From: Sphingomicrobium flavum
GTDB lineage: Bacteria; Pseudomonadota; Alphaproteobacteria; Sphingomonadales; Sphingomonadaceae
Direction of reading: 5' to 3'
DNA length: 64,000 nt
Assembly (NCBI RefSeq): GCF_024721605.1
Contig: NZ_CP102630.1
Span: forward strand, 1,984,001-2,048,000
A model generated the notes under the pieces. The model was not told the origin of the DNA and did not search any database. It saw nothing but the letters and a program-made list of their open reading frames with translations. Shown piece after piece: positions 47,893 through 61,023 of this stretch. A program made the translations under genes and the position numbers. Within the stretch, counting starts at the first letter, position 1. The number at the start of each line of letters is the position of its first letter.

Positions 47893-48467
47893 GACGCGAG
47901 GAAGGCCTTCAGATAGTTGGCGCCGGGCGCCGAGGAACGTTCGGGATGGAATTGCGCGCCCCAGAAATTGCCCTGCCGGACCGCCGCAGGGATAGGGCGG
48001 CCATAGGTGGTGCGCGCCGCAGTGGCAGGCCCATCGGGGCAGGCAAAGCTGTGCGCGAAATAGAGATGGTCGCCGTCCTGAAGGCCGATGTCGCCATGGG
48101 TCTCGACCCGCGACCAGCCCATGTGCGGGACCGGGCGCGAGGGCGCGGCTTCGAGCGCGGTGACGGTGCCCGGAAGGATGGCGAGGAGGGGCGCATCGGC
48201 CTCCTCGCTCGCTTCGAACAGCAATTGCATGCCGACGCAGATGCCGAGCGTGGGGCGGGTGCGCTCCCTGATGGCATCGACCAGCCCATGATCGGCGAGG
48301 CGCTGCATCGCATAGCCCGCATGGCCGACGCCGGGGACGACCAGCCGGTCGGCGGCCTCGACCGCCGCGACATCGCGCACCAGTTGGGGATCGGCGCCAA
48401 GGCGGGCAAAGCCCAGGCGGACCGATTCCACATTGCCATAGCCAAGATCGAGGATGGCGAGGGTCAC
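47889..48467 (-). CDS. hisH: Imidazole glycerol phosphate synthase, glutaminase subunit
   Basis: The product has 192 residues from GTG 48467. It is a class I glutamine amidotransferase: [28 protein letters not shown], nucleophile region [28 protein letters not shown] and the His-Glu pair in [18 protein letters not shown] has Val where most members have Leu, which should be harmless. It supplies ammonia to HisF. GTGA overlap with hisCB upstream. Confidence 0.94.
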
Positions 48468-50095
48468 AGCATCCCCTTGGTCGAGGGGACGGAAGTGCCG
48501 CCGCTGGTGGCCAGCCCCTGGCGAAGCGCGCGCCCGAAGGCCTTGAAGCAGGCTTCGACCTTGTGATGGTCATTATCGCCGACGACCTTCACATGGATGG
48601 CGGCGCGCATGCTATCGGCCAGGCTGCGGAAGACGTGGGGGGTCATCTGGGTGGGAAAATCGCCGACCTTTTCATCGCTGAAATCGCCTTCGAACTTGGC
48701 AAAAGGCCGCCCCGACAGGTCAATCAGCACTTCGGCCGAGGTCTCGTCCATCGGCAGCGCAAAGCCGAAACGGCCAATGCCCTTGCGATCGCCCAGCGCC
48801 AGATCGAGCGCTTCGCCGAGCGCGAGCGCGACATCTTCGATGCTGTGGTGGCCATCGATATGATGATCGCCGGTGCAGGCGAGCGTGAGGCCAAAGCCGC
48901 CATGGCCGGCAATCTGATCGAGCATATGATCGTAAAAGCCGACGCCCGTATCGATGCGGCGCGGCGCATCGGGAGTATCCAAATCGACTTCGACGACGAT
49001 GGCGGTTTCGCCCGTATCGCGGGTGACCGCGGCGCGTCGGCCGGGGCGGCGCTCGCTCGTCACGCCGAAGACCGCGAGCAGGGCTTCATTTTCCTGCGGC
49101 GTACCGATCGAAACGCGCACCCCGCCAACCGCAGCCTTGGGGCGGAAGCGCAATTTGACCCCCGCAGCGGCAAGGCGGCGGGCAAGATCGGCGGGATCGG
49201 CAACGACCAGGAAGAGATAATTGCCGCCTTCATGGACCGCCTGCACCTCATCGACCTCGCCTAGCTGGCGCGCCAGCATGGCACGATCATCGAGCAGGCG
49301 GCGGACGCGATCGGCATGGACGGGCATGCGTTCGGGCGCGAGCGCTTTCATCGCCGCTTCGATCGAGGGCGTGGGCAGCGGATAAGGCGGGGCGACGCGC
49401 ATCAGCCAGCCGATGATATCGGGGGCGGCGATGGCACAACCGATCCGCGCACCGGCAAGGCCATAAGCCTTGGACAGGGTGCGCAGGACGAGCAGGTTGT
49501 CCGCCACTTCGGGCGCGAGCGAGGGGGCGGCTGAAAATTCGCCATAGGCTTCATCGGCCACCACCAGCGTATCGGGCAGCGCCTTGGCGATGCGGCGCAC
49601 GGCGGCGGGATCGACCGGGGTGCCGGTGGGATTGTTGGGGGTGCAGAGGAACAGCAATTTGGGCGCGGACCCATCACGGCAGACCTTGAGCACGGCCCCT
49701 TCATCGAAGGCGAAATCATCGGTCAGCCGCGCGGCATCCACCTTCGCGCCCTGGATGCGCGCGAACTGGCCATAGGCCGAGAAAGTGGGTTCGACGGTGA
49801 CGATGCGATCCTGCCCCGGCACGAGGAAGGCGCGGCACAAGAGGTCGATCGCATCATCGCTGCCGCGCGTGACCAGCAATTGTTCGGCGCGCACGCCATA
49901 GAGATCGGCCATGCGCGCACGCAGCGCCGGGGGCTGGGGATCGGGATAGCGGTTGATGGTTTTGCCGCCCGCGAGCGGTTCATAGGGATTTTCATTGGCG
50001 TCGAGCCGGATGGTGCCGGGCACGGGCGCGCCCGCCAGGTCGACCGGCGGCAGATCCTTGAGATCGGGGCGGATGAGGCGATCGGCGATGCTCAT
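48464..50095 (-). CDS. hisCB: HisC-HisB fusion: histidinol-phosphate aminotransferase + imidazoleglycerol-phosphate dehydratase
   Basis: One uninterrupted 543-residue frame covers two enzymes. Residues 1-344 are His[53 protein letters not shown]-lysine K209 in [13 protein letters not shown] and [13 protein letters not shown]. Residues 352-543 are His[68 protein letters not shown] and a PSTKGML end. The link is only about ten residues. The N-terminal phosphatase of enterobacterial HisB is absent. A GTG at the joint (FGVTSE) has no Shine-Dalgarno, so read-through to one polypeptide is expected. Confidence 0.93.
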
Positions 50096-52269: not shown

Positions 52270-52560
52270 TCAGGCTTTCTGGGGCGAGAGCTTTTCGATC
52301 ATCGCGCGATAGCCCTTATTTTCGGGGCTGTTCAAAAAGCGCGCGACGCGGGTGATGGTGGTGGTGGACACGCCGGTGGCATCATGGATCTGGCGATAGG
52401 TGAGCGCGCCTTCTGCCAACAGATTGGCGACGTGCCAGCGCTCCGCCAGCGCCCTCAACTCGCTGGGCGTGGTGAGGTCGCGCAGGAAGGCCTCGGCCTC
52501 TCGTCTGTCGTCGATGGCGGCCATGGCGGCGGCCAGCTGCTTGATGCTCGAATCGGTCAT
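52270..52560 (-). CDS. yerC: YerC/YecD-family TrpR-like regulator (HisR), first gene of the his operon
   Basis: The product has 96 residues. The TrpR-superfamily fold is evident from AFLRDLTTPSELRALAERWH and the helix-turn-helix LTYRQIHDATGVSTTTITRV. TrpR-like YerC/YecD proteins have been predicted to regulate histidine genes in Gram-positive bacteria. Here the gene starts the his operon, four bases before hisG, and directly faces the trp operon across a 113-base region. Histidine-responsive autorepression is the natural inference. A role in trp control is also possible. Confidence 0.88.
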   Translation of the reverse strand: MTDSSIKQLAAAMAAIDDRREAEAFLRDLTTPSELRALAERWHVANLLAEGALTYRQIHDATGVSTTTITRVARFLNSPENKGYRAMIEKLSPQKA

Positions 52561-52564
52561 GGTT

Positions 52565-52582
52565 GTTACAACGTGTTAAAAC
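52565..52582. promoter_or_regulatory. Tandem GTTAnAAC octamers, candidate YerC operator
   Basis: Two near-palindromic octamers, GTTACAAC at 52565-52572 and GTTAAAAC at 52575-52582, are separated by two bases, so they repeat with a 10-bp period on one face of the helix. They lie 5-22 bases upstream of the yerC start, where a repressor would block transcription. Binding by YerC is inferred from position only. Confidence 0.45.
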
Positions 52583-52624
52583 AGTGAAACGTGCAGCTAG
52601 GGATTTTGTGGCGGGCCTGCAACC

Positions 52625-52638
52625 TTTTTCATGAAAAA
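52625..52638. promoter_or_regulatory. Perfect 14-bp palindrome in the his/trp control region
   Basis: TTTTTCATGAAAAA is self-complementary over all 14 bases. It lies midway in the 113 bases between the yerC and trp-leader start codons. The symmetry and A/T richness suit a protein-binding site. It has no adjacent stem-loop context to be a terminator. A weak -10-like TACGAAT follows at 52639-52645, which would place the trp transcription start near 52651. Confidence 0.45.
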
Positions 52639-52673
52639 TACGAATGCTCGTTGACATGTTGGAGAAAAAGCCA

Positions 52674-52775
52674 ATGTTACGCGCCATGCAGATCGATGCC
52701 CTCACCATCCGTAATGACGCCGCGTTTGCCGGTTGGTGGTGGCGCTCGCCCATATTCGGCGTGCGCAACGGCTAA
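52674..52775 (+). CDS. trpL: Tryptophan operon leader peptide
   Basis: A 33-residue frame starts at ATG 52674 with GGAG at 52661-52664. It encodes GWWWRSP: three consecutive UGG codons at 52734-52742, preceded by Gly and followed by Arg-Ser-Pro. The frame ends with TAA at 52773. A rho-independent terminator follows 28 bases later, then the aroF gene. Such a cluster of Trp codons before a terminator is the defining feature of transcription attenuation. Three successive Trp codons in a random short frame would be very unlikely. Confidence 0.9.
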   Translation: MLRAMQIDALTIRNDAAFAGWWWRSPIFGVRNG

Positions 52776-52826
52776 ACCTGCCTCACAACCAGGTCACCCG
52801 ACGCCCGCCTTCGAGCGGGCTTTTTT
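52731..52826 (+). promoter_or_regulatory. trp attenuator region
   Basis: Region 1 contains the Trp codons (52731-52742) and can pair through GCCGGTT (52727-52733) with AACGGC (52767-52772). Region 2 includes GGCGTGCG (52758-52765), which can pair at 7 of 8 positions with CGCCCGCC (52802-52809), the left arm of the terminator. Ribosome stalling on the Trp codons would free region 2 to form this antiterminator. With ample charged Trp-tRNA the ribosome covers region 2 and the terminator forms. Pairings were found by eye. Confidence 0.75.
52803..52826 (+). terminator. Rho-independent attenuator terminator of the trp operon
   Basis: GCCCGC (52803-52808) pairs with GCGGGC (52815-52820) around a CTTCGA loop, followed directly by six T residues. 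It lies 46 bases before the aroF start codon. Its left arm is also part of the proposed antiterminator. Confidence 0.88.
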
Positions 52827-52872
52827 ATGTCCGCTCTCCCGATCCCAGAAGAGACGAAAAGAGCAAAAAGAC

Positions 52873-53886
52873 ATGATTATCGTGATGAAACCCGAAGCCA
52901 GCGAAGAGACCGTCCAGCGATTGCTGCACAAGATTGAGGCGAAGGGACTGAAACCCCTCCACATGCCGGGCGCCGAGCGCGTGGTGCTGGGGGCGCTGGG
53001 CGACGAGCGGGTGCTGGCCGAGCTGGGGTTCGATGCCGAGCCCTCGGTCGAGAGCGTGAAGCCCATCCTGTCGCCCTACAAATTGGTGAGCCGCGAGCTG
53101 CACCCGCATGACAGCCGCATTTCGATCGGCGATGCGGTGATCGGTGGCGGGCGCTTCGCGATGATTGCGGGGCCCTGCGCAGTGGAGAATGAAGAGCAGG
53201 TGATGGCCTCGGCCAGGGCCGCCAAGGCAGCGGGTGCACGCGTGCTGCGCGGCGGGGCCTATAAGCCGAGGACCAGCCCCTACAGCTTCCAGGGGCATGG
53301 GCCCGAGGGGCTGAAATTGCTGAAAGCAGCGGGCGAGGAAGTGGGTCTGCCCATCGTCACCGAGGTGGTCGATGCGCGCGATCTCGACATCATCACCGAT
53401 GCCGCCGACGCGATCCAGGTCGGCACGCGCAACATGCAGAATTTCGAGCTTCTGAAGGCGGTCGGCGGGGCCGGGGTGCCGGTGATTTTGAAGCGCGGCA
53501 CGGCGGCCAAGGTCGATGACCTGTTGATGGCGGCCGAATATATCATGGCCAGCGGCAATGATGAGGTGATCCTGTGCGAGCGGGGGATCCGGACCTTCGA
53601 GACGGCGACGCGCAATACGCTCGATCTCGCGGCAGTGCCGCTGCTCAAGCAGAAGTCGCATCTGCCCGTGGTGGTCGATCCGAGCCATGGGACGGGCAAG
53701 CGCGAGCTGGTGGCGCCGATGGCGCTGGCGGCGGCGGCGGCGGGCGCGGACGGGGTGATGGTGGAGACGCATTACGATCCGCCGAGCGCGCTCAGCGACG
53801 GGCCGCAATCGCTCTACCCCGAGCAGATCGAGGCGCTGGGGCACCAGCTGTCGCGCCTGCTCCATGCGCTGGGCCGCGAACTGTGA
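52873..53886 (+). CDS. aroF: 3-deoxy-7-phosphoheptulonate synthase (type I-beta, with ferredoxin-like N-domain)
   Basis: The product has 337 residues. Residues 1-70 form a ferredoxin-like regulatory domain (MIIVMKPEASEETVQRLLHK). The barrel has FAMIAGPCAVENEEQVM, GGAYKPRTSPYSFQG, IQVGTRNMQNFELL, VILKRGTAAKVDDLL, CERGIRTFE and DPSHGTGKREL with metal and PEP ligands. It makes the first shikimate intermediate. As the first structural gene behind a trp attenuator, it ties entry into the aromatic pathway to tryptophan demand. The stop overlaps trpE (GTGA). Confidence 0.93.
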   Translation: MIIVMKPEASEETVQRLLHKIEAKGLKPLHMPGAERVVLGALGDERVLAELGFDAEPSVESVKPILSPYKLVSRELHPHDSRISIGDAVIGGGRFAMIAGPCAVENEEQVMASARAAKAAGARVLRGGAYKPRTSPYSFQGHGPEGLKLLKAAGEEVGLPIVTEVVDARDLDIITDAADAIQVGTRNMQNFELLKAVGGAGVPVILKRGTAAKVDDLLMAAEYIMASGNDEVILCERGIRTFETATRNTLDLAAVPLLKQKSHLPVVVDPSHGTGKRELVAPMALAAAAAGADGVMVETHYDPPSALSDGPQSLYPEQIEALGHQLSRLLHALGREL

Positions 53887-55391
53887 AACGGGTTGGCGCT
53901 GGAGAGGCGGACCTGCTGACCCGGCGCCTGGCCGGGGTCCATGACCCGGTCGCCTTGTTTGCCGCGCTGGAGGCCGAGGGGCGCGCGCAGATGCTGTTTC
54001 GCCGCACCGGCGGGCGGGCGCTGATCCTGTGCGATAGCGCGGTGACGCTGGAAGCGACGGGGGCAGAGGCCTGTTTCGCTGCCACCAGCGAGGCGGGGCG
54101 ACTGCTGCTGCCGGTGCTGGCGGAGAGGTTGGCGGAGTATGTCGTCGAGCAGGGCGATGCGCGGCTGGCCTTGCGGTTCGAGCGGTCGGACGATCCCGAC
54201 GAGGCGCGGCGCGGACAGGCGACGAGCGCTCTCGATGCGCTGCGGGCGCTGGCGCGGGGAGCGCAGAGCCGCGATCCCGAAGAGCCTTTTGCGCTGGCGG
54301 CGCTGGGGATCATCGGGTTCGACCATGTCGACATGATGGAGGCACTGCCGGCGCGGCCGCAGGGCGATTTTCCCGATCTCTATTTCCAGCTGGCCGAAAC
54401 GCTGATCCTGATCGAGGAAAATGGCGCGGCGCGGGTGCTGGCACTGGCGGTCGGCAGCGATGACGAAGCGGCGGCGCATCGCCAGCAATCGCTGGCCGCC
54501 GAGCGGCTGGCGCGGACCGTGGCGCGGATCGAGCAGGCGCGGGTGCCGTCGCTGGGCGAAGCTCCGAGCCAAGAGGCGCGCAGCGATATGGACGATGCGG
54601 AATTTGGCGCGTCGGTGCTGAAGCTGAAGGAGCATATTGCTGCGGGCGACATCTTCCAGGCGGTGCCAAGCCGCAGTTTCACGACGGGCTGCGACGATGC
54701 GCTTTCGGCCTTTCGCCGCCTGGTGAAGGCCGATCCCAGCGCCTATCATTTTTACCTGCGCACGCCTTATGGCACGCTGCTGGGCGCATCGCCCGAAACG
54801 GCGGTCGAGGTCAGCGGGCGCAGGGTGGCGGTGAGCCCGATTGCGGGCACGCGCCCGCGCGGGGACAGTGCGGACGCCGACGACCGGCAGGAAGCCGACC
54901 TGCGGCTCGACCAGAAAGAGGTGGCCGAACATCTGATGCTGGTCGACCTGGCGCGCAACGATGTGGCGCGGGTCGCGGCGCCCGGCACGCGGCGGGTAAC
55001 AAGCCTGCTGCGCGTCGAACGCTTCGCCAAGGTGATGCATCTTGTTTCCACCGTCGAGGGCGAATTGCCCGAGGGTCGCGATGCGGTCGACGCCATCCGC
55101 ACCTGCATGAATGTCGGCACGCTATCGGGCGCGCCCAAGCTGAAGGCGATCGAACTGATCCGCAGCGTCGAGACCAAGGCGCGCGGGCCCTATGGCGGCG
55201 CGGTCGGTTATCTCACCGGACGGGGCGAGATGGACAGCGCGGTGGTCATCCGTTCGGCGCTGGTGCGGGACGGCATGGCCGAGGTGCGCTCGGGCGCGGG
55301 CGTGGTCGCCGATAGCTGCCCCAAGGCCGAGGCTGCGGAAACCCGCGCCAAGGCGAGCGCGGTGCTGGCGGCGCTGGGGGCGGCGGCATGA
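53883..55391 (+). CDS. trpE: Anthranilate synthase component I
   Basis: The product has 502 residues from GTG 53883. Chorismate-binding domain motifs include IFQAVPSRSF, LLGASPETAVEV, PIAGTRPRGDSAD, EHLMLVDLARNDVARV, CMNVGTLSGAPKLKA and GPYGGAVGYLTGRGEMD. The proteobacterial (enterobacterial) TrpE subtype is indicated by DLYFQLAETLILIEENG and the overall colinearity. The usual LLES tryptophan-inhibition motif is replaced by LILCDS, so feedback sensitivity is uncertain. It works with TrpG. ATGA overlap with trpG. Confidence 0.93.
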   Translation: MKRVGAGEADLLTRRLAGVHDPVALFAALEAEGRAQMLFRRTGGRALILCDSAVTLEATGAEACFAATSEAGRLLLPVLAERLAEYVVEQGDARLALRFERSDDPDEARRGQATSALDALRALARGAQSRDPEEPFALAALGIIGFDHVDMMEALPARPQGDFPDLYFQLAETLILIEENGAARVLALAVGSDDEAAAHRQQSLAAERLARTVARIEQARVPSLGEAPSQEARSDMDDAEFGASVLKLKEHIAAGDIFQAVPSRSFTTGCDDALSAFRRLVKADPSAYHFYLRTPYGTLLGASPETAVEVSGRRVAVSPIAGTRPRGDSADADDRQEADLRLDQKEVAEHLMLVDLARNDVARVAAPGTRRVTSLLRVERFAKVMHLVSTVEGELPEGRDAVDAIRTCMNVGTLSGAPKLKAIELIRSVETKARGPYGGAVGYLTGRGEMDSAVVIRSALVRDGMAEVRSGAGVVADSCPKAEAAETRAKASAVLAALGAAA

Positions 55392-55981
55392 AACTGACCC
55401 TGATCGACAATCGCGACAGCTTCACCTTCAACCTGGTCGATGCCTTCCGTTTGGCGGGCGCCGAGGTGGAGGTGCTGCGCAACAGCGTCGATCCCGAGAT
55501 TGCGTTGGCGCGCGCGGCGGGCGGCGCGATCATCCTGTCGCCCGGCCCCGGCACGCCGGCAGAGGCGGGTTGCTGCCTTGAGCTGATCGCCTTGGCCAAG
55601 GGCGAGCTGCCGCTGATCGGCATCTGCCTTGGCCACCAGGCCATCGTCGCGCAGGCGGGCGGCGAGGTGCGCCGCGCGTCCAGCCCGGTCCATGGCAAGG
55701 TCAGCGCGCTGAACCATCACCACGCCGGTCCCTTTGCCGGCTTGCCCAGCCCGCTTTCCATCGGGCGCTATCATTCGCTGTGCACACCTACCGCCAAAGT
55801 GCCGGATCGCTTCACCGTGGATGCCGACTATGAAGGCATGGCGATGGCGGTGCGCGACGATGCGGCGCTGCAGCTGGGCTTGCAATTCCACCCCGAATCG
55901 ATCCTGACCCCGCGCGGGCAGGAGCTGATCACCAACCTGTTGCGCTGGGCGGCACAGCCATCTGCCCGCGCTGCTTCCTGA
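55388..55981 (+). CDS. trpG: Anthranilate synthase component II (glutamine amidotransferase)
   Basis: The product has 197 residues. The class I amidotransferase motifs are LIDNRDSFTFNLVDAFR, IILSPGPGTPAEAG, nucleophile IGICLGHQAIV, IGRYHSLC and QFHPESILT. It provides ammonia to TrpE. A folate-pathway PabA function from the same protein is possible, as in some bacteria with one copy. It is not fused to trpD, unlike in E. coli. A 22-base gap with GGAG precedes trpD. Confidence 0.93.
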   Translation: MKLTLIDNRDSFTFNLVDAFRLAGAEVEVLRNSVDPEIALARAAGGAIILSPGPGTPAEAGCCLELIALAKGELPLIGICLGHQAIVAQAGGEVRRASSPVHGKVSALNHHHAGPFAGLPSPLSIGRYHSLCTPTAKVPDRFTVDADYEGMAMAVRDDAALQLGLQFHPESILTPRGQELITNLLRWAAQPSARAAS

Positions 55982-56003: not shown

Positions 56004-57056
56004 ATGAGCCCCACTGCCAGCCAGATCCTGCCGAACGATGCCGGCCCCGTTCCCAACCCCATGCCCAAATTGCTGTCGGGCGAAGATCTCCCCTCGTCCG
56101 ACAGCGAACATCTGTTCGAGCGACTGGTGCTCGGCCGATTGGAGCCTGCCGAAGTGGCGGGGATGCTGGTGGCGCTGCGCATGAAGGGCGAAACCGCCGA
56201 AGAGATGATCGGCGCGGCGCGCGCGCTGTCGGCGGCGGCGCAGCCCTTCGATACGCCCGATTACCTGTTCGGCGATTGCTGCGGCACCGGGGGTGACGGA
56301 TCGGGCCTCATCAACGTGTCCACCGCCGCGGCCTTTGTTGCCGCGGCCTGCGGATTGCCCGTGGCCAAGCATGGCAATCGTTCGGTCAGTTCCAAATGCG
56401 GATCGGCCGACGTGCTGGAAGCGCTGGGCTGCAACCTCGAGGTCGATGCCGATACGGCGCGCCAATTGCTCGACGAGACGGGATTCTGCTTCCTCTTTGC
56501 GCCGGCCTATCACCCCGGGATGAAGCATGCCGGGCCGGTCAGGAAACAACTGGCGGTGCCGACGGTGATGAACTTGCTTGGCCCCTGCATCAATCCGGCG
56601 CGCCCCAAGGTACAGCTGATGGGCGTCGCCGATCCCACCATGATGCGCCATATCGCCAAGGTGCTGGACGCGCAGGGCGTGGAACAGGCGCTGGTGGTGC
56701 ACGGATCGGGGCTGGACGAAATCGCGCTGCATGGCGACACGCGCGCCATCCGGCTGGACCATGGCGAGCTGAGCGAGCTGACCATTGCGCCCGAGGATTT
56801 CGGGGTCGAGCCCGCGCCGCTGAAAGTGCTGACCGGCGGCGAGGCGCAGGAAAATGGCGAGCGGCTGGGCCGGTTGCTGAAGGGTGAGGGCGCGCAGGCG
56901 GAAAATGACATCGTCATCATCAATGCCGCCGCGCTGCTGCATGTCGCGGGCAAGGCGGACAGCCTGAAGGACGCTGCCGACATGGCGCGCCATGCCCTCC
57001 TGTCGGGCGATGCGGGCGCGGTGCTCAAGCGCTATGCCGAGGCCAGCCATGGCTGA
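56004..57056 (+). CDS. trpD: Anthranilate phosphoribosyltransferase
   Basis: The product has 350 residues with an extra roughly 20-residue N-terminal extension. Motifs are DYLFGDCCGTGGDGSGLINVST, AKHGNRSVSSKCGSADVLEA, CFLFAPAYHPGMKHAGPVR, NLLGPCINPA and HGSGLDEIAL. GDCCGTGGDG has Cys where many have Ile-Val. The PDYLF and FVAAACGL stretches are close to the phosphoribosyltransferase part of enterobacterial TrpGD. The end overlaps trpCF by eight bases. Confidence 0.94.
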   Translation: MSPTASQILPNDAGPVPNPMPKLLSGEDLPSSDSEHLFERLVLGRLEPAEVAGMLVALRMKGETAEEMIGAARALSAAAQPFDTPDYLFGDCCGTGGDGSGLINVSTAAAFVAAACGLPVAKHGNRSVSSKCGSADVLEALGCNLEVDADTARQLLDETGFCFLFAPAYHPGMKHAGPVRKQLAVPTVMNLLGPCINPARPKVQLMGVADPTMMRHIAKVLDAQGVEQALVVHGSGLDEIALHGDTRAIRLDHGELSELTIAPEDFGVEPAPLKVLTGGEAQENGERLGRLLKGEGAQAENDIVIINAAALLHVAGKADSLKDAADMARHALLSGDAGAVLKRYAEASHG

Positions 57057-58404
57057 TGTGCTGGCGCGCATCGTGGCGCGCAAGAAGGTGGAAGTGAAGG
57101 AGCGGATCGGCGGCAAGGCCATTGCCGCAGAGCCGACCAGCCGCAGCCTGATCGCCGCGCTACGCGCGCCCGGTGCGCGCTTCATCATGGAGGTGAAGCC
57201 CAAAAGCCCGTCGGGTCATGTCGCACGGCATGAGCCGCAGGCCGCGCTGGCCGCCTATCGTCCGATTGCCGATGCCATCAGCGTGCTGACCGATGGCGAG
57301 GATTTTGGCGGGTCGCTGGCGCTGCTGGAGGCCATACGAAAGGGCTTTGACGGGCCGATCCTGGCCAAGGACTTCATCGTCGATGCCGCGCAGGTTCGCG
57401 AGGCGCGCGCCCATGGCGCCGATGCGGTTCTGTGCATGCTGTCCGTGCTGGACGATGGCGGGGCCCGGCGGGTGATGGAAGAAGCGCAGGCGTTGTCGAT
57501 GGACGTGCTGGTCGAAGTGCATGACGAAGAAGAGATGGAGCGCGCGCTGGCACTGGAGGCGCGGCTGATCGGGATCAACAATCGCGACCTCAAGACGCTG
57601 ACGACTGACCTTGCCGTGACCGAGCGGCTGGTCGCTATGGCACCCGCTGAGGTCACGCTGATCAGCGAAAGCGGCATCGCCGGGCGCGCCGATGTGATGC
57701 GGCTGGCCGACAAGGTCGACGGTTTCCTGGTCGGCAGCCATCTGATGGCGGCGGACGATATTGCGCTGGCGGCGCGCGAGCTGGTGCATGGCGCAGTCAA
57801 GATTTGCGGGCTGACCAATGGCGTCGACGTGCTGATGGCGGCGGCGTTGGGAGCGAGCCATGCGGGCTTCATCATGGTGCCCGATACGCCGCGTCATGTC
57901 GCGCAAGAGGAAGCCGCGCGCCTAGCCTCCCTGGCGGCGCGGATGGGGATGAAGACGGTCGGCGTGTTTCGCGGGCAAGCAATCGAGGAGATGGCCGCCA
58001 TCGCCAACAGCCTGAAATTCGACGTGGTGCAGGTACATGACCGCGAGGCGGCGATGGACCTTGCGGCGCTGCGGGCGCTGCTGAAGGGTGCGCCGGACAT
58101 CTGGGACGCGGGGTCGGTGCGCGCCGAGGAAATTGTACGGGCCGACCGGCGCCTGTTCGACAATCAGGATGGCGGGACGGGGCAGGTGTTCGACTGGTCT
58201 CGGCTGCCTGAAGGCGAGATTCGCGACCGGGCCTTTTTGGCGGGCGGGATTGCGCCCGGCAATGCGCGCGCGGCGCAGGCGATCGGTACCTATGGGCTGG
58301 ACATCGGGTCGGGCGTGGAGGAACGGCCGGGGCGCAAGTCGCGCGAAAAAATGGAACAGCTTTTTGCAGCGCTGCGGGCGCCTGCACGTGGAGACAATCG
58401 ATGA
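57049..58404 (+). CDS. trpCF: TrpCF fusion: indole-3-glycerol phosphate synthase / phosphoribosylanthranilate isomerase
   Basis: The product has 451 residues, nearly identical in length to the E. coli fusion. The TrpC half (1-247) has [12 protein letters not shown] with catalytic Lys50, [32 protein letters not shown] and [12 protein letters not shown]. The TrpF half begins at about 249 with VKICGLTNG (catalytic Cys) and has [24 protein letters not shown] and DIGSGVEE. Most alphaproteobacteria keep trpC and trpF as separate genes, so the fusion supports a gamma-type origin. It overlaps trpB by four bases. Confidence 0.94.
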
Positions 58405-59585
58405 AGATGGACGGACGTTTCGGGGAATTTGGCGGGGCCTATGTGCCCGAAATCCTCGTCCCCGCGCTGGAGCAACTGGAAGCGGCCTATCTGGCGGCGA
58501 TGGCGGACGAGGACTTCCAGTCCGAGCTCGACCATCTTCTCCAGACCTATGCCGGGCGGCCGACCGCGCTGACGCGCTGCCGCAATATCGGGTCGGACAA
58601 GGTGCGGCTCTATCTGAAACGCGAGGATCTGCTGCATGGCGGGGCGCACAAGACCAACCAGGTGATTGCGCAGGCATTGCTAGCGCGGCGGATGGGCAAG
58701 CAGCGGCTGATCGCCGAGACGGGGGCGGGGCAGCATGGCGTCGCCACCGCGATTGCCGGGGCGCTGTTCGGCATGGAGGTGCGCATCTATATGGGCGCGG
58801 TCGATGTCGAGCGGCAGCAACTCAATGTCTTTCGCATGCGGCTGATGGGGGCCGAGGTGATCCCGGTCACCTCGGGCGATCGCACGCTCAAGGATGCGGT
58901 CAACGAGGCGCTGCGCGAATGGTCGGCGCGGTTCGAGGATACGCACTATCTGCTCGGCACGGTGGCGGGGCCGCATCCCTTTCCCCGGCTGGTGCGCGAT
59001 TTCCAGGCCGTGATTGGCAAGGAAGCGCGCGCCGAAATGCTGGAACGCGAAGGACGGCTGCCCGACGAGGTCGTCGCTTGTGTTGGCGGCGGGTCCAATG
59101 CGATCGGCATCTTCCATGCCTTTGTCGAGGATGAAGGAGTCGCGCTGACTGGCTGCGAGGCGGCGGGCAAGGGGCTCGACACCGACCAGCATGGCGCGAC
59201 GCTGGGCAAGGGCCGACGCGGTATCTTGCATGGGGCGGAAACCTTCCTCCTGCAGGATGAAGACGGGCAGGTCAGCGATAGCTGGTCGGTTTCGGCGGGG
59301 CTCGATTATCCCGCGGTGGGGCCTGAACATGCGCATCTGATGGCCGCTGGGCGCGCCAATTATGTCGGCGTGACTGATGAGGAGGCGCTGGCGGCGTTCC
59401 AGGCGCTGGCGCAGAAGGAAGGGATCATCCCCGCATTCGAAAGCGCGCATGCCTTGGCTTATGCGATGAAGCGCGTGGAAGAGGCCGAGGCCGCGGGTGA
59501 GGAATTGGTGCTGCTGGTCAATCTCTCCGGACGGGGGGATAAGGATATGGCCCAGGCGCAGACCCTGCTGGAGGGCGCGCTGTGA
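58401..59585 (+). CDS. trpB: Tryptophan synthase beta chain
   Basis: The product has 394 residues. [30 protein letters not shown], the PLP-lysine motif [31 protein letters not shown] and [11 protein letters not shown] are all conserved. It joins indole and serine to make tryptophan in complex with TrpA. GTGA overlap with trpA. Confidence 0.96.
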
Positions 59586-60376
59586 ACAATCGATATGATG
59601 CGATGTTTGCGGCGGCGGCCGACAGAAGCGAGGGCGTTTTCGGCGGCTTCGTGATGCTGGGCGATCCCGACCTTGAGACCAGCGCGGCGATGCTCGATGC
59701 GCTGGTTGCAGGCGGGGCGGACATGATCGAGGTCGGCATTCCCTTTTCCGATCCGGTTGCCGACGGGCCGGTGATCCAGGCCGCTGCGGTGCGGGCGCTG
59801 GAAGCGGGGGTGCGGACCGATGACTGCCTGCAATTGCTGCGCGAATTTCGCGCGCGCCATGCCCATGTACCGGTCGGCGTGCTAACCTATGCGAACATCG
59901 TCGCCGCCAAGGGACGCGAAGCCTTTTGCGAGGCGCTGGCGGTAGCGGGCGTGGACAGTTTGCTGATCGCCGATGTGCCGAGCCTGGAAGCCGCGCCCTA
60001 TGTCGAGGCGTGCCGGACGGCGGGGATTGCGCCGGTCATGATCGCTGCGCCCAATAGCAGCGACGAGCAGCTCGACCGCATCGCCGCGATGGGGGCGGGC
60101 TATACCTATTGCGTCGCGCGCGCTGGGGTGACCGGGCAGCGCCAGGATATGGCGCTCGACCATGGCGAACTGTTCGCCAAGCTCGAACAGCGCGGCGCCG
60201 CGCCGCCGGTCCTCGGCTTTGGCATTTCGACGCCGGCGCAGGTCCGCCAGGGGCTCGGTGCGGGTGCGGCGGGCGTGATCTCGGGCAGCGCGATCGTCGC
60301 TGCGGCGGCGGACGGGGACGATCCGGCCAGCGCCGTGCGTGCACTGGTCAGCGACTTGAAGGCGGGAACGCGCTAG
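59582..60376 (+). CDS. trpA: Tryptophan synthase alpha chain
   Basis: The product has 264 residues from GTG 59582. [37 protein letters not shown] with the catalytic Asp, [15 protein letters not shown] and [12 protein letters not shown] are present. It releases indole from indole-3-glycerol phosphate. Last gene of the trp operon; its stop forms a CTAG shared with convergent msrA. No intrinsic terminator is visible after it. Confidence 0.95.
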
Positions 60377-61023
60377 CGGGCCAGCGAAGCGAACTGGGCG
60401 CGGAAATCGCGCAGCTTGGGCGCGTCGTGCGCGAGGATGTAGGGATTGCGCGGGTTCTTCTTCATGAAGTCCTGGTGATAGTCTTCGGCCATGTAGAATT
60501 TGGGGGCGCTTTCGATGGTGGTGACCAACTTCTTGCGCCAGATGTTCGCGCCATCGAGCTGGCGGATATAAGCGCGGGCCTGGCGGGCCTGGCGGTCATC
60601 GAGCGGGAAGAGCGCGTTGCGATAATGCTTCCCGACATCGGGGCCCTGGCGATTGAGCTGGGTCGGATCAGTGATGACCGAAAAGAAGATCTGCATCAGT
60701 TCGCCATAGGAAACCACGCTGGGATCGAAGGTGACGCGTACGGCTTCGGCATGTCCGGTGCTGCCTGAGGTGACCTGCTTGTAGCTGGCCGGCCCCTTGC
60801 CGCCAGCGAAGCCGGAGACCGCGCTTTTGACGCCCTTTACCTGTTCGAACACGCCTTCCACGCCCCAGAAACAGCCGCCCGCGAAGATGGCGGTTTCGGT
60901 GGTGGCAGGGTTGGCGATCACCAGCTTGGGCGCGGGGGCCAAGGGCGGTGCGGCCGCAGCTTCGACGCTGCACGCGGAGATCAGCAGGGCCATCGGGGCG
61001 AGGCGGAGAAAAAGAGTACGCAT
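60373..61023 (-). CDS. msrA: Exported peptide-methionine (S)-S-oxide reductase
   Basis: The product has 216 residues. A signal peptide or lipobox-like start, MRTLFLRLAPMALLISACS, suggests export. The MsrA domain has the catalytic FAGGCFWGVEGVFEQVKGV, YKQVTSGSTGHAEAV and HYRNALFPLDDRQ, and the C-terminal YMAEDYHQDFMKKNP. It repairs oxidised methionines, here probably in the periplasm. No MsrB lies nearby. Confidence 0.92.
   Translation of the reverse strand: MRTLFLRLAPMALLISACSVEAAAAPPLAPAPKLVIANPATTETAIFAGGCFWGVEGVFEQVKGVKSAVSGFAGGKGPASYKQVTSGSTGHAEAVRVTFDPSVVSYGELMQIFFSVITDPTQLNRQGPDVGKHYRNALFPLDDRQARQARAYIRQLDGANIWRKKLVTTIESAPKFYMAEDYHQDFMKKNPRNPYILAHDAPKLRDFRAQFASLAR

Follow-up and report, generated by a model that had tools for sequence, protein, structure and literature searches.

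What does the tryptophan-rich leader in front of the aroF-trp genes of this sphingomonad control, and does it have the makings of a working attenuator? The window—the whole 64,000-nt stretch of DNA analysed here—spans positions 1984001-2048000 of a single-contig 2.34 Mb genome and carries on its plus strand, in this order, the leader, aroF, trpE, trpG, trpD, a trpC-trpF fusion, trpB and trpA. We read the leader as a ribosome-mediated tryptophan attenuator with a leaderless leader mRNA that would control aroF-trpEGD(C-F)BA, and put the probability of this reading at roughly 0.88.

Sequence elements and start of the leader

The plus-strand leader frame runs for 33 codons from an ATG at 52674 to the TAA at 52773-52775 and contains the three consecutive Trp codons named in the original prediction, TGG TGG TGG, at 52734-52742. 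Directly 3' of these codons lies a predicted 1:2 hairpin (52743-52765; ViennaRNA, -10.5 kcal/mol for 52743-52768). The 2:3 antiterminator (52758-52809; ViennaRNA, -19.7 kcal/mol for 52757-52812) combines inner stems with the pairing of GGCGTGCG (52758-52765) and CGCCCGCC (52802-52809), for which seven of eight positions pair by eye, the figure given previously. In the 3:4 hairpin (-11.4 kcal/mol, ViennaRNA), GCCCGC (52803-52808) faces GCGGGC (52815-52820) ahead of TTTTTT (52821-52826), which places the anticipated rho-independent terminator with six T at 52803-52826. A stricter terminator scan of the window's plus strand returned one such site, the attenuator's own; likewise, of the nine TGGTGGTGG sites that the window has on its two strands, the attenuator's was alone in having a terminator-like site within 130 nt downstream. 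By sequence, the locus has the short ORF with tandem Trp codons and the intrinsic terminator ahead of the first structural gene that characterise the trpL class; it also precedes Trp biosynthesis genes, as judged by adjacency and gene identity alone.

The first structural gene is, as had been proposed, a DAHP synthase gene rather than trpE: aroF (52873-53886, plus strand) encodes a type I-beta enzyme with a ferredoxin-like domain (PF00793, PF18152; TIGR01361 and PRK08673 over their cut-offs), whose nearest PDB chains are 4grs, 1rzm and 1vr6. It is followed on the same strand by trpE (53883-55391; PF00425, PF04715; PRK13564 over cut-off), trpG (55388-55981; TIGR00566), trpD (56004-57056; TIGR01245), the trpC-trpF fusion (57049-58404, start codon uncertain; PRK09427), trpB (58401-59585; TIGR00263) and trpA (59582-60376; TIGR00262), the last five models likewise scoring over their cut-offs. 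The GTG start of trpE at 53883 lies inside the aroF stop, and this four-base overlap (GTGA) suggests that the two genes are probably translationally coupled. Diverging from the operon on the minus strand are genes for a YerC/YecD-type protein and HisG, and an ORF resembling hisD (by eye); a single minus-strand ORF at 48464-50095 resembles a HisC-HisB fusion (by eye). At the other end, a methionine sulfoxide reductase-like ORF (by eye; 60373-61023, minus strand) runs towards trpA and shares four bases with its end.

To locate the leader start, we searched 19 leaders—specified below, all containing TGGTGG—for in-frame start codons preceded by TTGAC at 33-42 nt. Seventeen of the 19 have such a codon at a distance of 35, 36 or 37 nt from the motif (16 ATG and, in L184, one GTG), the chance of TTGAC at three given offsets from one given start codon being ~0.0016 in this DNA. 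L093 has TTGAC at 41 nt, and L094 lacks it and carries TTGTG at 35 (by eye). Further in-frame ATGs stand at other distances from TTGAC: 23 nt in the window, 24 in L017, 40 in L005 and L088, 45 in L091 and 58 in L010. In the window, TTGAC lies 35 nt 5' of ATG 52686 as part of a putative -35 box, TTGACA (52651-52656, plus strand). The expected -10 box (52673-52680) matches TATAAT in at most three of six bases and is weak and poorly conserved across leaders; a consensus scan of the leader region found no promoter, so the promoter assignment draws on comparison among the leaders.

Translation might instead begin at ATG 52674, from a promoter further upstream and with the attenuator otherwise unchanged. 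This codon is in frame, and a GGAG ~9 nt 5' of it is a possible Shine-Dalgarno sequence; however, it reads AAG in the two nearest relatives, L005 and L088, and sits in the expected -10 position, and the spacing shared by 17 leaders favours 52686. We therefore consider the upstream start quite unlikely. Of the 33-residue leader originally proposed, the reading frame stands and the start is probably wrong: the leader is more likely the 29-residue product of trpL (52686-52775, plus strand; 29 codons plus stop, MQIDALTIRNDAAFAGWWWRSPIFGVRNG), in which the Trp run forms codons 17-19. Given the TTGAC spacing, a spacer of 17 nt and a further 6-8 nt beyond the -10 box would have transcription begin on the start codon or right beside it, which would make the leader mRNA probably leaderless. 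Leader RNA rnTrpL of Sinorhizobium meliloti is described as beginning at the trpL ATG (available text of PMC7298713), and 375 leaderless mRNAs are reported for Caulobacter (available text of PMC4117421). If our assignment holds, the promoter-to-leader spacing could be used for finding such leaders in sphingomonads.

Simulated ribosome stalling and proposed control of the operon

We modelled stalling by removing the 5' part of the RNA, from the start of the leader up to 12 nt beyond the first nucleotide of the A-site codon, folding what remained as far as the end of the T-run and averaging the pair probability over the terminator stem; the folds are at equilibrium and leave kinetics out. In the window, this probability was 0.99 for the free RNA and 0.87-1.00 for stalls before the Trp run. 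Placing the first Trp codon in the A site lowered it to 0.06, the second Trp codon gave 0.87, and from the third through the stop the values were 0.98-1.00. In equilibrium folding, the first Trp codon was thus the sole stall position abolishing the window's terminator.

The comparison was extended to 14 leaders (the window, L005-L010, L017, L088 and L090-L094; L089 was excluded as it comes from the same genome as L006), in which mean terminator loss was 0.54-0.67 at the Trp run versus 0.24-0.26 at random runs of equal length (p ≤ 6e-4 throughout the footprint range of 9-15 nt). With L181-L185 added, the mean loss across 19 leaders was 0.61, compared with 0.125 when the stretch from the Trp codons to the terminator was shuffled (p 5e-5), and with a ribosome on the stop codon the loss was at most 0.04 in all 19; counts across leaders are not independent trials, because the leaders are related to one another. 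Switching was weak, with a loss below 0.5 at the Trp run, in eight of the 19 (L005, L007, L009, L088, L090, L092, L184 and L185), and in L006 and L093 earlier stalls at non-Trp codons removed the terminator, too. For the window itself, a 15-nt footprint lowered the loss to 0.13. An antiterminator that excludes the terminator and is favoured by stalling at Trp codons is hence found in silico, weakly in those eight leaders and in a footprint-dependent manner in the window.

Could the arrangement be a functionless product of chance? The fold energy of 52660-52830 was no lower than that of shuffles (z -0.68), overall fold energy being uninformative here, and one terminator-like site is close to the chance expectation of a looser scan (0.7 such sites per 801 bases, both strands). 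The conservation and stall tests across the 14 and 19 leaders contradict this explanation, which we find scarcely credible. As far as sequence and folding go, the attenuation device is intact, in line with the original prediction, and the attenuator in front of aroF-trp is real and classical by mechanism.

A second explanation would make the leader a relic and assign control to the TrpR-related product of the adjacent gene (52270-52560, minus strand). This neighbour does match Pfam Trp_repressor as well as NCBIfam yecD_yerC, the latter over cut-off; yet against the TrpR equivalog it scores 34.4 bits, below the cut-off of 67.25. The operator motif of TrpR is of the ACTAGT type, and a motif scan of 52561-52700 revealed no such site. 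Nor does the gene always lie upstream of the operon: L007, L008, L010 and L017 have no yerC match within 3 kb upstream of aroF, and in L009 and L183 yerC lies downstream, beside hisG, as at every locus where it was seen. Leader, Trp codons and terminator, on the other hand, are retained in 19 of 19 leaders. Judged by its family matches, the neighbour is a YerC/YecD family protein, related to TrpR but not TrpR, and we regard control by it behind a relic leader as highly improbable.

Compatible with attenuation would be an additional role in trans of the terminated leader RNA or of its peptide, by analogy to rnTrpL/peTrpL. A leaderless attenuator RNA would offer the same starting point as in Sinorhizobium, whose leader RNA beginning at the trpL ATG acts in trans according to the available text of PMC7298713. 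Apart from close relatives, however, the 19 leader peptides share little outside the Trp run (by eye), and such a role appears doubtful.

For the attenuator itself, we propose the following course. RNA polymerase would start at or beside ATG 52686, as the promoter spacing suggests, and ribosomes would load directly on that 5' end. When Trp-tRNA is short, a ribosome would stall at the first Trp codon (52734) and free 52758-52765 to pair with 52802-52809; the terminator would fail to form and aroF-trpEGD(C-F)BA would be read. When Trp is ample, the ribosome would reach the stop codon, the terminator stem (52803-52820) would form and transcription would end near 52826.

With respect to the carbon flow under this control, the window's AroF is the genome's only PF00793 match, and a second DAHP synthase gene, of type II (393 residues; ~G000:C1:2229653-2230834), lies outside the operon. 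The product of the latter matches PF01474 over the Pfam cut-off and TIGR01358 with 464 bits, below the cut-off of 614.7, and its gene adjoins an aroA-like ORF (by eye). AroF is therefore one of two DAHP synthase isozymes predicted from this genome. The notion that attenuation sets carbon flow into all aromatics is not supported, since with two such enzymes encoded, attenuation by Trp would determine how much of one of them is made and not all aromatic carbon. Under Trp shortage, pathway entry through AroF as the second isozyme would rise together with the Trp branch, and the type II enzyme would serve basal needs. If true, the locus shows how entry into the aromatic pathway can be coupled to Trp shortage, namely by setting one more DAHP synthase isozyme behind a trp attenuator of the ordinary kind.

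Distribution and descent

AroF matches at 1e-139 or better were obtained in eight of 347 family genomes, the window's included, the remaining 99 matches having E values of 2e-32 or weaker; at 1e-90, the window's TrpE type was found in the same eight genomes only. A Trp leader precedes aroF in 14 of 14 sphingomonad loci. In a phylum sample of 398 genomes, six (again counting the window) encode an AroF of at least 58% identity, and all six have a Trp leader and an adjacent trpE. Beyond the sphingomonads, all five Pseudomonadota loci whose AroF is 58-62% identical carry the leader before aroF; at 49-53% identity, the short Trp leader and the adjacent trpE are both absent in three of three. The leader-aroF-trpE unit recurs in three other sampled Pseudomonadota families, which we infer to be Gammaproteobacteria.

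In a midpoint-rooted TrpE tree (43 rows, two long ones flagged; eight of nine native loci, with L131 left out), the 14 sphingomonad cassette TrpEs grouped (100/99) beside 20 other Pseudomonadota sequences; the joint group of 34 (98/97) lay at a great distance from native sphingomonad TrpE. In the AroF tree (46 of 91 rows used), these 14 organisms again formed a group (96/93), next to which stood four other cassette AroFs (100/99); support for the two groups combined was 100/100. Both trees agree in their main groups, the order within groups being partly unsupported. The simplest reading of these patterns would be that the leader-aroF-trp unit was kept together and either transferred or retained patchily. 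Insertion of a foreign aroF behind a native trpE leader is disfavoured, because the two trees agree and native trpE lacks a TGGTGG ORF: of the family's many native-type sphingomonad trpE loci, nine were looked at, and in all nine the ~1.3 kb upstream is free of short ORFs with TGGTGG, in a search blind to leaders without two adjacent Trp codons.

We inspected six genomes that lack the aroF-trpE cassette: G266 and five from the window's genus. Five of the six (L181-L185, from G332, G197, G145, G274 and G266, respectively) have a Trp leader with terminator before trpD-(C-F)-B-A and no aroF, trpE or trpG in the cluster (13 kb taken); the sixth, G238, yielded no TrpB at 1e-20. Each of the six encodes a single chorismate-binding enzyme, nearest PabB, whereas five cassette carriers searched alongside have two. 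That these relatives keep a native trpE was rejected, as their sole chorismate-binding enzyme is closest to PabB. A search with PF04715 was too insensitive to show TrpE absence, because it missed G077 and G304, which have TrpE. Given that trpE and trpG are unmatched in the cluster and the single enzyme is PabB-like, a need for anthranilate or Trp is predicted, and strains with the leader-trpD arrangement should require one or the other. We infer that this arrangement arose by loss rather than being ancestral. If true, the attenuator was kept with different genes behind it, here as leader-trpD with no anthranilate synthase component I found, which predicts anthranilate-dependent strains.

Elsewhere, in family f40, a second Trp-rich peptide ending in KVK[ST]WF[IM]WWL[QL]P[IL]YAG-stop occurs in 27 of 147 genomes (L187-L213); L139, L146, L148, L158 and L167, partly from the same genomes, carry it as well, and the pattern read backwards gave no match in genomes of that family. 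The peptide lies 29-39 nt before aroF in 17 cases and 46-263 nt before an extrapolated trpE match in 10, with a TGGTGG leader upstream of it in 24 of the 27; inspection by eye of the 90 nt that follow the peptide showed no terminator, a possible hairpin in L204 aside. At a pN/pS of 0.11 (24 distinct DNA copies, seven codons outside the search pattern, kinship uncorrected), the peptide itself looks constrained. Pfam had no match for the window leader, the L006 leader or the second peptide, and NCBIfam none for the window leader and the second peptide; a padded L139 leader returned one meaningless family match (E 0.17). Another locus, L143 (1-484), has two tandem Trp attenuators before aroF, with WWW and WWWW leaders and a terminator after each (by eye).

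Taken together with this second peptide, a broader reading can be put forward tentatively, as a possibility that falls short of likely. Leader-aroF-trp would be an ancient control cassette whose parts have been inherited together and now and then transferred, and through which Trp attenuation would govern both a private DAHP synthase and the Trp branch; within family f40, one part of its range, the second constrained Trp-rich peptide would add control, perhaps as a Trp-sensing nascent-chain arrest peptide.

Comparison with known attenuators

Against Rfam, 52728-52828 gave a full-length match to Trp_leader (RF00513) at 29.9 bits (E 2.5e-4, 341 bases), short of the gathering score of 41 and hence unreported at that threshold. 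Because the curated score is missed, the window leader is not filed under RF00513, even though it is predicted to work like members of that family. Among 12 relatives, L143 exceeded the gathering score—both of its leaders match, the second one above gathering—and L088, L089, L094, L139, L140, L146 and L167 stayed below it, L167 also matching further leader and sRNA families below threshold; L090-L093 had no match at E 0.5. Among the matches listed in the open-licence literature, titles and the beginnings of abstracts describe neither a sphingomonad trp attenuator nor a Trp-codon attenuator before a DAHP synthase gene, which is weak evidence that none has been described.

The trp attenuator of Escherichia coli and its relatives share with the window the tandem Trp codons, the alternative antiterminator and terminator, and a trp operon with a trpC-trpF fusion and an enteric-type trpE. 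In contrast to that type, the window's operon starts with a DAHP synthase gene, its leader is probably leaderless and scores below the Rfam gathering threshold, and no TrpR-type operator was found. Closer by taxonomy, the trpL/rnTrpL attenuator of S. meliloti, also an alphaproteobacterium, gives an RNA beginning with the leader ATG, but its leader has 14 residues and precedes trpE(G) only (available text of PMC7298713), compared with the predicted 29 residues and a whole-pathway operon opening with aroF in the window.

Linkage of early aromatic genes to attenuation or to trp genes is described in other settings. In Corynebacterium glutamicum, aroR precedes the aroF operon and mediates ribosome-dependent attenuation of a DAHP synthase gene; it differs in its Phe-Tyr-Phe codons and its response to Phe, and the trp operon of that organism has its own trpL (available text of PMC11802643, on Neshat et al. 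2014). The Desulfovibrio vulgaris supraoperon aroA'-aroB'-...-trp likewise joins early aromatic genes to a complete trp operon, with attenuation predicted, yet alternative early enzymes replace DAHP synthase there and the cluster includes pheA and tyrA (available text of PMC1173090). In three cases among Sargasso Sea contigs, a DAHP synthase gene, aroG/aroH, belongs to the trp cluster; unlike in the window, it adjoins trpA at the far end of the cluster, and the word 'leader' is absent from the available text of that source (PMC2395257). Against this background, the mechanism at the window's locus is classical, and it is the operon context and the probable leaderless start that make the variant.
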